The position numbers were made by a program, and so were the translations under genes. From Spirochaetales bacterium (GTDB lineage: Bacteria > Spirochaetota > Spirochaetia > Treponematales > UBA12059), in the NCBI GenBank assembly GCA_016928955.1, contig JAFGJV010000039.1, positions 1 through 64,000 of the forward strand: a stretch of DNA of 64,000 nucleotides, read 5' to 3'. Under the pieces are notes generated by a model that was not told the origin of the DNA, searched no databases, and saw only the letters and a list, made by a program, of their open reading frames with translations. Below, in pieces: positions 36,745-42,594 of this stretch (its first letter is position 1; every line of letters starts with the position of its first letter).

Positions 36745-37860
36745 ATGGCCGGAAATATCCGGCTGCCACAGCCCAGGGCGCTGGCCCTTGTCGCCGCGTG
36801 GCGCTCGTTTTTTTGCGACGCTTCCGGGTCGGCGGCCTTGCCCTCGGCCCGCGAGCTGGACGCCCTGGCACGCGATGTGCTCGCGCTCCAGCGGGGCCTC
36901 ACCGGGGAGCGGAAGCTGGCCGGTTCGGGGTACATGGACAGCCCCGGCCTCCTGGGCGCCTACCTTCTGTACTATTGGCCCGTGTCGTGGGCCCAGGCCT
37001 CGCGCGCCATACGGCGCTCGGGCATGGCCGGCGCTCTCAAGGGCGCTCGCGTTCTGGACCTCGGCTCCGGGCCCGGCCCCGTGGCCGCCGCCGCCCTGGA
37101 CGCGGGGGCGGGATCTGCCTTCCTGGTCGACCGCTCCGAGCCGGCACTGAACCTTGCCGCGTCCCTCCTGGGCCCGGCCTTGGCGGGAAAAGCTGTCATG
37201 GACCTTGCCGACAAACTGGATGGCTTGCCCGGTCCCTTTGACCTGGTCACCATAGGCCATGCACTGAACGAGCTGTCCGGCGATCAGGCCCTGGACAGGC
37301 GTCTGGCAGTATTCCAGAACCTGATGCCCGTGCTGGCGCCGGGCGGCCGCGTGCTGGCCATGGAACCGGCCACCCTTGCCGCAAGCCGCGGTCTTATGGA
37401 ACTCAGGGACGCCCTCCTCTCGCGGGGCTGGTCGGTCCTGGCGCCCTGCGTCACCCAAGAGCCCTGCCCCGCCCGTGCCGCCGGGCCCCAGCACAGCTGC
37501 CATGACGAGGCCCCATGGACCATGCCCACAACGGTAGCCGAACTGGCGCGCCGGGCCGGTCTGGACCGGGACCTCATAAAACACAGCTGGATGGTGTTCC
37601 AGGCCCCCGGCCATGCGCTGCCGCCATCCTTTGCCTACAGGGTGGTGTCAGAGCAACTGGTCAACAAGGCGGGCAGGGCGCGGCGACTGCTGTGCGGGCA
37701 GGGCGGGCGCTTTCCCCTGTCGGCCAAGCTCGGCGACAGCGCGGCCGCAAAAACCGGCTTTTTCAGCCTGGAACGCTACGATCTTATACGCGTGGATGGC
37801 CCCGAAGCGCGGGAAGGCGGCTGGGGCGTGTCCGCCGACACGAGTATCACCCGGCTCTGA
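36745..37860 (+). CDS. Rsm22-type rRNA methyltransferase-like protein
   Basis: A 371-residue member of the Rsm22 family (bacterial relatives of mitochondrial METTL17). SAM-binding Rossmann motif VLDLGSGPGPVAAAAL near residue 101, catalytic-domain strand LVTIGHALNEL, then a Cys-rich segment CVTQEPCPAR ... GPQHSCHDE and a late LLCGQGG. In METTL17 such cysteines hold a 4Fe-4S cluster, so one may be present here. Role: small-subunit ribosome assembly or rRNA methylation. It follows the lipase gene by 5 nt. Confidence 0.85.
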   Translation: MAGNIRLPQPRALALVAAWRSFFCDASGSAALPSARELDALARDVLALQRGLTGERKLAGSGYMDSPGLLGAYLLYYWPVSWAQASRAIRRSGMAGALKGARVLDLGSGPGPVAAAALDAGAGSAFLVDRSEPALNLAASLLGPALAGKAVMDLADKLDGLPGPFDLVTIGHALNELSGDQALDRRLAVFQNLMPVLAPGGRVLAMEPATLAASRGLMELRDALLSRGWSVLAPCVTQEPCPARAAGPQHSCHDEAPWTMPTTVAELARRAGLDRDLIKHSWMVFQAPGHALPPSFAYRVVSEQLVNKAGRARRLLCGQGGRFPLSAKLGDSAAAKTGFFSLERYDLIRVDGPEAREGGWGVSADTSITRL

Positions 37861-37935
37861 GGACCCGCCGTAAAAATCGGATAGGAACAGTCGGGTTTTG
37901 CACCCTGTCGCATGGCACGGGCACGCCGCGGACAC

Positions 37936-37941
37936 TACACT
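37936..37941 (+). promoter_or_regulatory. -10 box of the sensor kinase gene
   Basis: TACACT is followed by six bases and a GTG at 37948 that begins a well-formed signal peptide. A -35 match 17 bp upstream (TGGCAC, 37913-37918) is weak. Confidence 0.4.
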
Positions 37942-37947
37942 GTGAGT

Positions 37948-39699
37948 GTGAAAGCAGCCATACGCCGCTGGGTAACGGCCATGTTCGTCGCCCTGAGCGC
38001 GTTCCCGGGAGCCCACGGATCGGACGCTCCGCCTGTCGTCATCCTCCTCGTGTCCTATCACCGCGCCGACTGGAGCAACTCGGTCATAGCCGGCGTGGAA
38101 TCCGTGCTCGGTCCCGGGGACGAGATCAGCGTGCGGCCCCACGACGGCGGCGTCCTGACCTATGCCCTGCGCACCGAGTACATGGACACCAAGTGGCTGG
38201 AAGACGACGAGTATTTCGGTTCCCTGGAAAACATCTACCGGAGAAAATACGCGGACCGGCAAGTGGTCGCCGTGCTGGCCGTTGACGACCACGCATACCG
38301 CTTTGCACTTACCCGCGACGCTTTTGGCCGGGCGCCCGTGTTTTTCTGCGGGGTAAACGACGTTCGGCCGGAACTGCACGGCGACCGGGCCGCGGGAGTC
38401 ACAGAAAGCGCCGACTGGGAACCCACCCTGTCGCTGGCCCTGCGCATGTTCCCGGATACCCGGCGCATCGTGCTCCTGGAGGACGACACGGCCACGGGCA
38501 TGTCCAATACCGCCGAATTTCTGGCAAACGTGGCGGAAAGCGCCCCGAGCGTGGAGATCGTGCGCAGCCTCGGGCTGTCCAAAACCCAGACGGCAGCCTT
38601 GCTCGCGTCGCCCGACCCACACACGGTTGCCATCTTCAACGCCCTGTGGCGCGACGGCTCGGGCAATGCCATTTCCGTCCAGGAACAGGCGACACTGCTC
38701 AGGGAATCCAGGATACCCGTATTCGGCCGCGCCCAGTGGATGATGGGGCATGGCCTTCTCGGCGGGCTCTGCGTCATCGGCGAGGAGCAGGGCGCGGGAG
38801 CCGCGGAGCTGTTGCTGTCGTACCTCCGGACAGCCGTCCTGCCGTCCAGCGTGCGTGAAAGCCCCAACCGTTTCATGTTCGACGACCAGGTGCTCCGCCG
38901 CTTCCGCGTATCGTCGTTTCCGCTGCCTGAAGGGTCCATCGTCCTCAACCGGCCGGAACCCTTCCTCAAGCGCTACGGCCGCGTGCTCGTGCCGTCCGTG
39001 CTCGTATCAAGCGCCCTCGGCGCCGTGCTCGTCGCTATGGTGCTGACACAGCGCAGGCTGAGAACCGCCGAGCTCACCCTGCGCGACAGCCTTGCGGAGA
39101 AGGAAACCCTCCTCAGGGAAATCCACCACAGGGTCAAGAACAATCTCCAGGTCATGAAGAGCCTGTTCAGCCTGCAGCGGCACGAGTCCGGCCAGAGCGT
39201 GGACCAGATTTTTGAGGCGGCCACGTCACGCCTCCACGCCATGGCCCTGGTGCACGAGCGCCTGTACAGAGACGGCCGCTTTGGCTCCATAGACCTCAGG
39301 GAGTACGCTGAGGACATAGTCGACGAGATAGCCAGGATATACGGCGCGGGCCCTGGAGACACGGACATCCACGGGCCATCCCTGTTCATCGACATAGACC
39401 ACGCCGTGCCGGTGGGCCTGTTCCTGAACGAGGCCCTGACCAACGCCTTCAAGTACGGGCAAACGGACAAGGGAGGGCCGGCACGCGTCAGCCTGTCCAT
39501 AGTCTCCTCGGGCCCTAGCGTGGAGATCGGCGTCAAGGACCATGGGCCCGGCTTTGAGCTCGGCGGCCCGGCCCGTGAAGGCCTGGGCCTGACCCTGATG
39601 AACGCCATGGCCGACCAGCTGGGCGGGAGCCTGCGGTATGGCCGCGACGACGGTTTTTCGGTATGCCTGTCCTTCCCCCTCAGCCGGACCACGGCGTAG
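37948..39699 (+). CDS. Sensor histidine kinase with periplasmic substrate-binding-like domain
   Basis: A 583-residue membrane kinase: signal peptide, a periplasmic domain of about 310 residues resembling ABC-transporter substrate-binding proteins ([35 protein letters not shown]), one transmembrane helix ([21 protein letters not shown]), then a HisKA_2-type kinase with phospho-acceptor box [13 protein letters not shown] (near residue 393), N-box NEALTNAF, G1 DHGPGF and G2 GLGLTLM. The GTG start is chosen because it yields a proper signal peptide and lies 6 nt behind a -10 box. No adjacent response regulator; the REC-PAS protein at 103-828 is a candidate partner. Confidence 0.88.
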
Positions 39700-39746: not shown

Positions 39747-40268
39747 ATGATCAGGGCCATGGCCAGTTTCATCGGTTGGTCGAATACGGGAAAAACCACG
39801 TTTATAGAGGCATGCGCGCGGGAGGCTAGCGCCATGGGCCTCCGGCCGGCTGCCCTCAAGCAGGTCCGGCATCCGGGCGCCTACAATCCGGACGGCAAGG
39901 ATTCTACGCGGTTTTTCAGCGCTGGCGCGGATTCAGCCCTGCTGTCGGCCAACGAGCTGGTCCTGACCAGGAAGCCTCCAGCAGCGCTGGACGCGTCCTT
40001 CCTGGCCTCCCTGTTTCCGGACGCAGACCTTGTGTTCCTGGAGGGTGCCGAGCCGGATGGATCGACGCTCGTGCTTGTGGCCGGCCCCGCGTGCCTTGAA
40101 TCCGAATGCAAGCGGCCGTTCCCGGGCTTTGACGCGATCGTGAGCGACGATGCCGCCCTTGGCGAGGAGGCCAGGCGCGCCGGGCTCAGGGTATACGGCA
40201 GCGGCGGCGCCGCCAGGTTCCTGGACGACATGCTGTCCGGAGTTTTTCAGAGGGAGGTAAGAGCGTGA
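39747..40268 (+). CDS. mobB: MobB-like P-loop protein
   Basis: A 173-residue GTPase-like protein of the MobB family. P-loop GWSNTGKTTF, then the family pattern LKQVRHPG ... GKDSTRFFSAGAD and the Asp/Glu strand DLVFLEGAE. MobB assists guanylation of molybdopterin, but no other molybdenum-cofactor gene is present in the window. No Shine-Dalgarno sequence; the -10 box ends 6 nt before the ATG. Its stop overlaps the GTG of a 55-codon gene, so the two products are made together. It lies beside the hydrogenase operon but on the opposite strand. Confidence 0.82.
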   Translation: MIRAMASFIGWSNTGKTTFIEACAREASAMGLRPAALKQVRHPGAYNPDGKDSTRFFSAGADSALLSANELVLTRKPPAALDASFLASLFPDADLVFLEGAEPDGSTLVLVAGPACLESECKRPFPGFDAIVSDDAALGEEARRAGLRVYGSGGAARFLDDMLSGVFQREVRA

Positions 40269-40432
40269 GGGACGTGCGCGTGACAAGCGGCGGAAACGTC
40301 GTGCCCATGATACCGTTTGTGAAGGAAATCATTGAGGGCGTCCTGTTGGGGATACTGAGGACGCTGAAAAAATGCGACCCGGACGCGGAGCTAGTCGTGA
40401 CCATAGGCCCTGCCGGGGACAAGGCCGACTAA
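40265..40432 (+). CDS. 55-residue protein coupled to mobB
   Basis: A short gene opening with GTG that overlaps the mobB stop (GTGA) and is preceded by GGGAGG about 7 nt upstream inside mobB. The product of 55 residues runs from RDVRVTSGGNVVPMIPF through an amphipathic helix (VKEIIEGVLLGILRTLKK) and a strand (AELVVTIGP). Coding character is supported by the coupled start, strong RBS and GC-rich third positions. I do not recognise the family; it is likely a partner of MobB. Confidence 0.7.
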   Translation: MRDVRVTSGGNVVPMIPFVKEIIEGVLLGILRTLKKCDPDAELVVTIGPAGDKAD

Positions 40433-40824: not shown

Positions 40825-42594
40825 TCAGACCTTGTACACCGAGCGCTTCTCGTAGTGCGTATGCAGGAGCTCGTGGGCCTTGTGGCTGTTCGGCTCGCCC
40901 AGGAAGTCAGCGTACACCTGGGTGATGTACGGGTTCTGGTGGGAACAGCGGTAGGTGCTCTTCTCGTCATCCGAGTAGATGCCGGCTATGCGCTTCTGGC
41001 GCATCTCGTCGGTGGCGCCGTAGGGCTGGCCGCCGCCGCCTATGCATCCGCCTCGGCAGGCCATCACCTCGATGAAGTGCCAGGGGGCGTCCTCTCCCTT
41101 GTCGCGGGCCGTGCGCACCATGTCCAGCACCTGGGCTATGTTGCCCATCTGGTGGGCCACCGCCACGCGCACCTCTATGCCCTTGACGTGGATGCGGGCT
41201 TCCTTGATGCCGGATATGCCGCGCACGCCGGTAAAGTTCACGTCCTTGAGGTCTTCCTTGGTTATCAGGTTGTAGGCCGTGCGCAACGCGGCCTCCATGA
41301 CGCCGCCCGTTGCGCCAAAGATGGTGCCGGCCCCGGTGTACGGTCCCAGGGGGCTGTCCGCTTCCTCGTCGGGCAGGTTCACCAGGTCGATGCCTGCCTG
41401 CTTGATCATGCGGGCCAGCTCGCGGGTTGTCAGGGTCGTGTCCACGTCCTTGTAGCCAGAGCTCCACATGTCCTTGTTGCGGCCGTTTTCCCATTTCTTG
41501 GCTGTGCACGGCATGATGGACACGGAGAAAATCTTTTTGGGGTCAACCTTGGCCTTCTCGGCCCAATAGGTCTTGATCATGGCGCCCATCATCTGCTGGG
41601 GGCTCTTGGCCGTGGAGAAGTTGGGGATCATGTCGTGGTAGTACTTCTCCATATAGTCAACCCAGGACGGGCAGCACGACGTGATCAGGGGCAGGAGTTC
41701 CTTCTTCTTGCCCGACGCGTAGTCGGTGAAGCGTTTCACGAACTCGGTGCCCTCTTCCATGATGGTCAGGTCGGCAGAGAAGTTCGTGTCGAACACCACA
41801 TCAAAGCCCAGCCGCCTCAAAGCCGCGTAGATTTTCTTGGTGATGACGGTGCCCGGTTCCAGCCCGAATTCCTCGCCCAAGGCCACGCGTACCGCGGGGG
41901 CTATCTGCACCACGCAGGTCATGTCGTCGGCTCCGGTCTTCATGAGGGCGTCCCAGACTTCCTTGGTCTGGTCGTTCTCGTAGATGGCGCCCACCGGACA
42001 GTGGGCGGCGCACTGGCCGCACTTGATGCACGGGCCGTCAGCAAGGGCCACGTCTGCGGCAGGGGCTATGCGGGTGTTCTCTCCCCGTCCGAGGAACTCG
42101 ATGGCCCACACGTTCTGCATCTCCTGGCACACCAGAACGCAGCGGCCGCAGCGCACGCATTTGTCCGGATTGAGCACCAGCGTGCCCGTGGACGTGTCCA
42201 GGGGCAGGTCGCGCAGGCGCTTCTCAAACGGCTGCTCGCGGATGCCGAACTCGGCGGCCAGGGTCTGCAGCTCGCACGAGCCGTTGCGCGGACACTGAAG
42301 GCAGTCGTCCGGATGGGTGGACAGGATGAGCTCTATAACGGTCTTGCGGACCTGCACGATTTCCGGATCGTGCGTGATGACGCTCATGCCCTCTTCAAGC
42401 GGGGTGCAGCACGCGCGGAGCATCTTGGGATTTTTCTCCACCTTGACCACGCATATTCCGCACGCTGCCCAGGGCGGCAGGTCGTCGTTGTAGCAGAGCT
42501 TGGGAATCTTGATATTAACCTTCTCGGCCGCCTCAAGGATGGTGGTTCCCTCGGCGACCTGAACCGGCACTCCGTTTATCTTGGCGTTGACCAT
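40825..42594 (-). CDS. hydA: [FeFe] hydrogenase catalytic subunit (HydA of HydABC type)
   Basis: A 589-residue catalytic subunit. N-terminal 2Fe-2S domain (CYNDDLPPWAACGICVV ... RACCTP), a His-Cys3 4Fe-4S site (HPDDCLQCPRNGSC), two 4Fe-4S ferredoxin motifs (CVRCGRCVLVCQ and CIKCGQCAAHCPVG) and the H-cluster loops L1 TSCCPSW, L2 MPCTAKKWE and L3 MACRGGCIGGGGQP. A final SLBB-independent tail ends with a short small-subunit-like region. Together with HydB and HydC it forms the trimeric, electron-bifurcating type that uses NADH and ferredoxin. Last gene of the operon. Confidence 0.96.
   Translation of the reverse strand: MVNAKINGVPVQVAEGTTILEAAEKVNIKIPKLCYNDDLPPWAACGICVVKVEKNPKMLRACCTPLEEGMSVITHDPEIVQVRKTVIELILSTHPDDCLQCPRNGSCELQTLAAEFGIREQPFEKRLRDLPLDTSTGTLVLNPDKCVRCGRCVLVCQEMQNVWAIEFLGRGENTRIAPAADVALADGPCIKCGQCAAHCPVGAIYENDQTKEVWDALMKTGADDMTCVVQIAPAVRVALGEEFGLEPGTVITKKIYAALRRLGFDVVFDTNFSADLTIMEEGTEFVKRFTDYASGKKKELLPLITSCCPSWVDYMEKYYHDMIPNFSTAKSPQQMMGAMIKTYWAEKAKVDPKKIFSVSIMPCTAKKWENGRNKDMWSSGYKDVDTTLTTRELARMIKQAGIDLVNLPDEEADSPLGPYTGAGTIFGATGGVMEAALRTAYNLITKEDLKDVNFTGVRGISGIKEARIHVKGIEVRVAVAHQMGNIAQVLDMVRTARDKGEDAPWHFIEVMACRGGCIGGGGQPYGATDEMRQKRIAGIYSDDEKSTYRCSHQNPYITQVYADFLGEPNSHKAHELLHTHYEKRSVYKV

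Follow-up and report, generated by a model that had tools for sequence, protein, structure and literature searches.

What does a MobB protein do when its gene stands apart from the other genes for the molybdenum cofactor and overlaps a gene of only 55 codons? The question is raised by a locus in a 64,000-nt stretch of spirochaetal DNA (hereafter, the window), for which a first-pass annotation suggested that a constant small partner would point to a role other than guanylating molybdopterin, perhaps metal-cofactor insertion for a neighbouring hydrogenase. MobA is the guanylating enzyme; MobB is a GTP-binding adaptor and not the guanylating enzyme, and members of its family bind GTP and dock on MoeA or on the pterin. 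The function of MobB and the way in which cells equip pterin enzymes with tungsten instead of molybdenum are little understood, and a small MobB partner that follows tungsten-dependent, aldehyde-oxidising enzymes of the aldehyde:ferredoxin oxidoreductase (AOR) family in two phyla, as described below, offers a compact and genetically testable handle on tungsten-cofactor assembly.

The mobB gene and its overlapping partner

The mobB-type gene (39747–40268, + strand) starts with ATG and encodes a 173-aa P-loop protein with the motifs GWSNTGKT, GKDS and EG. Its last four nucleotides, read from the sequence as GTGA at 40265–40268, are shared with the start of the 55-codon gene (40265–40432, + strand; GTG start), which we refer to as the tail gene. 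The Shine–Dalgarno sequence of the tail gene, GGAGG at 40253–40257 (+ strand), lies within mobB, 7 nt upstream of the GTG. Both the overlap and the internal ribosome-binding site of the original description were thus verified. The tail gene is a real and conserved partner of mobB, because its conservation is far beyond chance (the window tail matches a 17-row tail profile, its own sequence among the rows, with an E-value of 7.8e-21) and its GC content, 0.78 at the third codon position versus 0.38 at the second, is of the coding type. The separate tail genes of relatives also have an SD-like sequence upstream of their starts. In the window, no stop codon closes the −1 frame at the mobB/tail junction; a −1 frameshift fusing the two reading frames was rejected, as no canonical slippery heptamer was found by eye and separate tail genes with their own Shine–Dalgarno sequence occur widely, which makes such a reading unneeded.

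The window MobB passes the gathering cut-off of PF03205 (57.3 bits versus 26.6) and is the sole match to this family in its genome. MobB relatives in the PDB are 1np6, 1p9n, 4nkr and 2f1r, and the MobB motifs are canonical. The window MobB falls short of the cut-off of the TIGR00176 equivalog model (60.5 versus 76.2 bits), with model positions 3–99 of 155 aligned, and the C-terminal half diverges from canonical MobB.

Conservation within the order and internal start signals

We analysed 78 genomes of the order, the window's own and its relatives. PF03205 was matched at E ≤ 0.001 in 39 of them, and 12 were dropped as P-loop-only proteins or GTPase look-alikes (G011, G027, G028, G030, G036, G037, G049, G054, G067, G070, G072 and G076; G030 and G036 reach this cut-off only with neighbouring pieces), leaving true MobB in 27. 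A search with a tail profile located the tail in every one of these 27 genomes, either next to mobB or fused with it, including G016, where the tail is cut by a contig end and still matches with an E-value of 1.4e-5. The two are fused in 12 genomes and separate in 15. The expectation of a constant small partner, when followed into other genomes, is therefore borne out across the order.

The fused genes keep an ATG at the fusion point, preceded at 4–15 nt by an SD-like sequence in 10 of the 11 scanned (all of the 12 fused genes of the order except that of G009), against a background of 142 of 2304 other codons (binomial p 8e-12, ignoring relatedness). In the single miss, L020, the wrong Met had been taken, and by eye the right one is also preceded by GGAGG. 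Since these Shine–Dalgarno sequences are read in differing frames as differing residues (e.g. LED, SGG, GRK and HEE), the pattern points to selection on an internal ribosome-binding site rather than on amino acids. The fused genes probably continue to yield free tail protein, given that they retain both an internal Shine–Dalgarno sequence and an ATG. By eye, one fused gene from the other phylum discussed below (L183) has a Met near the fusion, and three others (L171, L184 and L190) have no such Met there.

The tail domain

The window tail matches the C-termini of NF011062 and NF011065 (PRK14494) with E-values of 1.7e-5 and 1.5e-4, covering positions 181–225 of the 231 in NF011062; the whole-protein cut-off of that model, 323 bits, is missed by both MobB (15.6 bits) and the tail (24.5 bits). 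Judged by this alignment, the small gene encodes, as a protein of its own, a domain that in other genomes is joined to MobB. Pfam gave no match for the window tail (E-values up to 1) or for three other tails (up to 0.1). An AlphaFold2 model of the tail (55 aa, 10 sequences; pLDDT 86, pTM 0.63) has a hairpin and one long helix, for which Foldseek found no fold match in the PDB library. A search of solved structures with the tail returned only designed helical proteins at an E-value of 0.001 or weaker, which we took as chance helix matches. The aligned tails show no conserved cysteine or histidine and no evident catalytic residues, and an adaptor or docking role would suit them better than catalysis. 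A model of fused MobB-tail is uninformative on docking because confidence in its tail part is low.

Short proteins are also encoded in tungsten oxidoreductase clusters: in the accessible part of the source, WorX is described as a ThiS-like protein encoded near WOR genes (PMC13328260). The tail, a short protein that can be found beside AOR genes (see below), has a predicted hairpin and helix that recall the start of a beta-grasp, and might on these grounds be a truncated sulfur carrier of the ThiS/MoaD type. None of the 16 aligned tails ends in GlyGly, however, and neither the Pfam nor the Foldseek PDB search connects them to that family, so we regard this origin as very improbable.

Hydrogenase and Rsm22 neighbours

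Upstream of the pair lies a gene for an Rsm22/METTL17-type methyltransferase (36745–37860, + strand; PF09243, 40.4 bits), which in the order usually precedes mobB. Between the two, the window has a sensor histidine kinase gene (37912–39699, + strand; HisKA_2 and HATPase_c) that belongs to no cluster common to other loci and is absent from most other loci of the order. The convergent downstream neighbour encodes HydA, a group A6 [FeFe] hydrogenase (40825–42594, − strand; NF040763, 809 bits, cut-off 765). In some loci of family f4, an RF-1-domain (ArfB-like) gene follows rsm22.

The suggestion that the pair serves to mature the adjacent [FeFe] hydrogenase draws on the presence of HydA within the fetched stretch in 16 of the 27 loci and on the distribution of PF02256, found in 26 of the 27 MobB-tail genomes and in 39 of the 51 others (p 0.028). 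Those 39 genomes, however, have the hydrogenase without MobB, the MobB-tail genome G006 has no PF02256 match, and no association is seen within families f1, f4 and f5. Moreover, rsm22 and a hydrogenase match lie within ∼ 6 kb on a single contig, with no mobB, in at least eight genomes (G028, G030, G036, G041, G044, G049, G067 and G076). On co-occurrence and synteny we rejected the hydrogenase link, which has next to no chance of being correct; metal-cofactor insertion, the more general part of the same proposal, was a fair guess.

A translation or ribosome-assembly module with Rsm22 would fit the 24 of 27 loci in which rsm22 occurs in the same fetched stretch as mobB, the 4-nt overlap of the two in L034 and L037, and the RF-1-domain gene that some f4 loci have close to or between these two genes. 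Of the three loci without rsm22 in the stretch, two lie at contig ends and the other is that of G050, where mobB sits in a Moco operon beside AOR. Against such a module, Rsm22 is found in 74 of the 78 genomes, mostly without mobB and often beside an [FeFe] hydrogenase, and neither the G050 stretch nor the surroundings of the tail in 30 loci from the other phylum gave an Rsm22 match. This distribution led us to reject it as highly unlikely. Because rsm22 and the hydrogenase gene neighbour each other also without mobB, their adjacency in the window looks like inherited synteny, an old neighbourhood that mobB and its tail have entered or left.

Cofactor genes and pterin enzymes of the window's genome

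The first annotation saw no other molybdenum-cofactor gene in the window, which is true of those searched for: MoeA, MoaA and MoaC have no match in the part of contig C52 that the window covers, nor do PF00384 and AFOR_N. The label 'orphan' holds for mobB at this scale but not for the genome, in which contig C50 carries, at L031:2777–8169, genes for a PBP/permease/ATPase transporter and, directly downstream, a cluster of moeA, moaA (its product being a radical SAM protein of the MoaA type), moaC and a gene of the MoCF_biosynth (MoaB/MogA) type. Judged by its position, the transporter would take up tungstate or molybdate. The genome, which is 99.5% complete, has no PF00384 (DMSO-reductase-type) protein and has three AFOR_N (AOR-family) matches. 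One AOR, of 721 aa, is encoded behind a 152-aa 4Fe-4S ferredoxin-type protein, a pair of the kind that follows mobB-tail in the Aminicenantes locus L200.

Because there are three AFOR_N matches but no PF00384 protein, the MobB of this genome is unlikely to serve MGD enzymes and, going by gene content, probably serves enzymes of the AOR type instead. It is accordingly likely that MobB does something here other than help to supply DMSO-reductase-type enzymes with MGD, in line with the first-pass annotation; the cofactor genes elsewhere in the genome weigh against that annotation's reading and the conservation of the small gene weighs for it.

Co-occurrence with AOR in the order

Among the 78 genomes, AOR (PF02730) is present in all 27 with MobB-tail and in 13 of the 51 others (Fisher p 2e-11; this and the other co-occurrence tests ignore shared ancestry, and the co-occurrence is phylogenetically clumped). 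The associations of PF00384 (22/27 versus 13/51), MoaC (20/27 versus 19/51) and the hydrogenase with MobB-tail are weaker than that of AOR; MoeA is found in 20/27 versus 16/51. By family, AOR is present in 9/9 f4 genomes with MobB-tail and 5/10 without (p 0.033) and in 1/1 and 2/16 f5 genomes, respectively (p 0.18), whereas f1, the window's own family, is uninformative, as all of its 23 genomes have AOR.

Within the order, the pair is near AOR only in G050 and not in the window. The G050 cluster consists of AOR next to moeA, moaA, moaC, moaB, mobB and tail, and an RF01055 Mo/W-cofactor riboswitch (59 bits; L049:4089–4213, − strand) is located directly upstream of AOR. Four f4 genomes (G033, G047, G052 and G061; loci L034, L043, L050, L051 and L059–L062) are harder to accommodate. 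MoaA, MoaC and MoeA were not detected in them despite the presence of MobB-tail and AOR, and their PF00384 matches are long open frames that look intact. The absence may be a true loss or a gap in the MAGs, and unless the MAGs miss the relevant region a cofactor role explains these genomes poorly.

The tail in Aminicenantes

A wide scan, from which 80 loci of 546 confirmed matches were kept, revealed three loci beyond the order in which a tail follows mobB, all of them in Aminicenantes. Among MobB genomes outside the order, AOR was found in all three with the tail and in 17 of the 47 without a detected tail, the search covering 50 of 72 loci (all but L123–L129, L131–L139 and L141–L146). With the extended profile A3, the tail was detected in 80 of 142 genomes of one Aminicenantes class (that of G078), where it may stand alone, be part of a fusion or occur in tandem. 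In G140, G141, G146 and G147, a tandem double tail domain is encoded by a single ORF of 98–122 aa.

In the 30 loci of this class that were fetched, MobB is adjacent or fused to the tail in 26, AOR lies within 1.5 kb of the tail in 17, and moaB adjoins a fused MobB-tail in six. Positions computed for 16 more genomes put AOR 2.4–5.9 kb from the tail, so that tail and AOR gene are less than 6 kb apart in at least 33 of the 80 tail-bearing genomes. The gene order in L140 and L200 is mobB-tail-ferredoxin-AOR. AOR is present in 80/80 tail-bearing and 48/62 tail-less genomes of the class (p 3.6e-6), a contrast that rests on 14 AOR-less genomes, several of them probably related. Thus, the tail has been seen only together with AOR, both in the order (27/27) and in the class (80/80). 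The 13 AOR genomes of the order without MobB and the 48 of the class without the tail indicate that the pair is not essential for AOR.

A split AOR is encoded downstream of mobB-tail in an Aminicenantes MAG (L140:1241–5657) and at L201:2041–6436. The first gene joins the N-terminal AOR domain (AFOR_N) with NuoE/NuoF-like domains and the second combines a NuoG-like ferredoxin part with AFOR_C, which places an electron-input module between AOR domains 1 and 2/3. The two genes are ∼ 70% and 84% identical between the two genomes, a similarity that makes an assembly chimera unlikely.

In a tree of MobB proteins (built by a quick method and containing several long branches; L163–L165 removed as duplicates and L177, L179, L180 and L187 without a MobB row), the tail-bearing MobBs need two label changes. 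The tail-bearing form may have arisen once or twice.

The frequency of PF00384 in MobB-tail genomes, the apparently intact PF00384 enzymes of G033, G047, G052 and G061, the canonical MobB motifs and the moaB genes next to fused MobB-tail would also be expected of an ordinary MobB that serves as adaptor for molybdoenzymes of the MGD type (DMSO-reductase family) and has an extra C-terminal domain, its link to AOR being a by-product of the anaerobic lifestyle. Five MobB-tail genomes, however, have no PF00384 match, among them the nearly complete genome of the window and G013 (98%), the universal companion of the pair is AOR and not PF00384, and tail genes are found directly upstream of AOR operons. 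We consider such an ordinary adaptor unlikely, if less so than the hydrogenase and Rsm22 readings.

A proposed role in tungsten-cofactor assembly

That the pair tracks the tungsten AOR rather than the hydrogenase suggests a small accessory protein for tungsten-cofactor assembly. We propose, with a probability of roughly 60%, that mobB and the tail encode one two-part accessory factor for a pterin-bound metal cofactor, chiefly for tungsten enzymes of the AOR/WOR family. The cofactor of Pyrococcus furiosus AOR carries no nucleotide, so that MobA, the classical partner of MobB, is not obviously needed, which counts against a role in AOR maturation. From the gene anatomy, the conservation, the internal start signals, the co-occurrence in two phyla and the gene clustering in Aminicenantes and G050, we infer a scheme of binding, transfer direction and metal choice in which MobB would be the GTP-binding part that handles the pterin or docks on MoeA. 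The tail, free or tethered, would act as a small adaptor to specify the target or the tungsten branch (tungsten AOR), and it might help tungstopterin to form at MoeA or to pass into apo-AOR.

A more specific version can be offered only tentatively, as something that may well prove wrong: the tail could be an unrecognised tungsten-specific adaptor of ∼ 50 residues, made either on its own, as a free subunit, or as an extension at the C-terminus of MobB; it would direct tungstopterin bound to MobB/MoeA into AOR-family enzymes and so set the choice of metal or target in organisms that have both Mo and W enzymes.

Comparison with known systems

The window MobB shares with canonical MobB (TIGR00176; Escherichia coli MobB, 1np6/1p9n) the P-loop domain, the GKDS and EG motifs and membership in PF03205. 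It differs in missing the TIGR00176 cut-off, in its divergent C-terminal half, in having a tail as an extra partner and in following AOR.

A functional parallel comes from Methylorubrum extorquens, for which the accessible part of a 2026 article reports a MoeA1-MobB platform and describes MobB as essential for W-FDH and not for Mo-FDH (PMC13197769). That W-specific branch likewise ties MobB to a tungsten enzyme, but its target is a W-bis-MGD formate dehydrogenase, not AOR, and the same part of the article mentions no tail.

AOR neighbourhoods, according to the accessible part of another study, hold MoaD, MoeB, MoaA, MoaE, MoeA and ferredoxin genes (PMC1779556). As far as the accessible parts of the sources go, WorX and the AOR-linked MoaD resemble the tail in being small proteins that are encoded beside AOR and thought to serve its pterin cofactor (PMC13328260; PMC1779556), and differ in being ThiS/MoaD-like, whereas the tail lacks a terminal GlyGly and gave no match to a known family. 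The term 'MobB' is absent from the main text of both these papers and from the accessible parts of PMC12096430 and PMC10609526, and in a partial library of titles and abstract beginnings we found no description of a small MobB partner.

The tail domain itself is already contained in the NCBI PRK14494 models (NF011062–NF011065, 'MobB/FeS domain-containing protein'), whose last ∼ 50 positions match both fused and separate tails. The window pair falls far below the whole-protein cut-offs of these models and is encoded by two overlapping genes. The models carry a putative name and no further function. The domain is known to annotation; its probable part as a tungsten-accessory partner is largely undescribed, and the name 'MobB/FeS domain' may hide a tungsten accessory domain.
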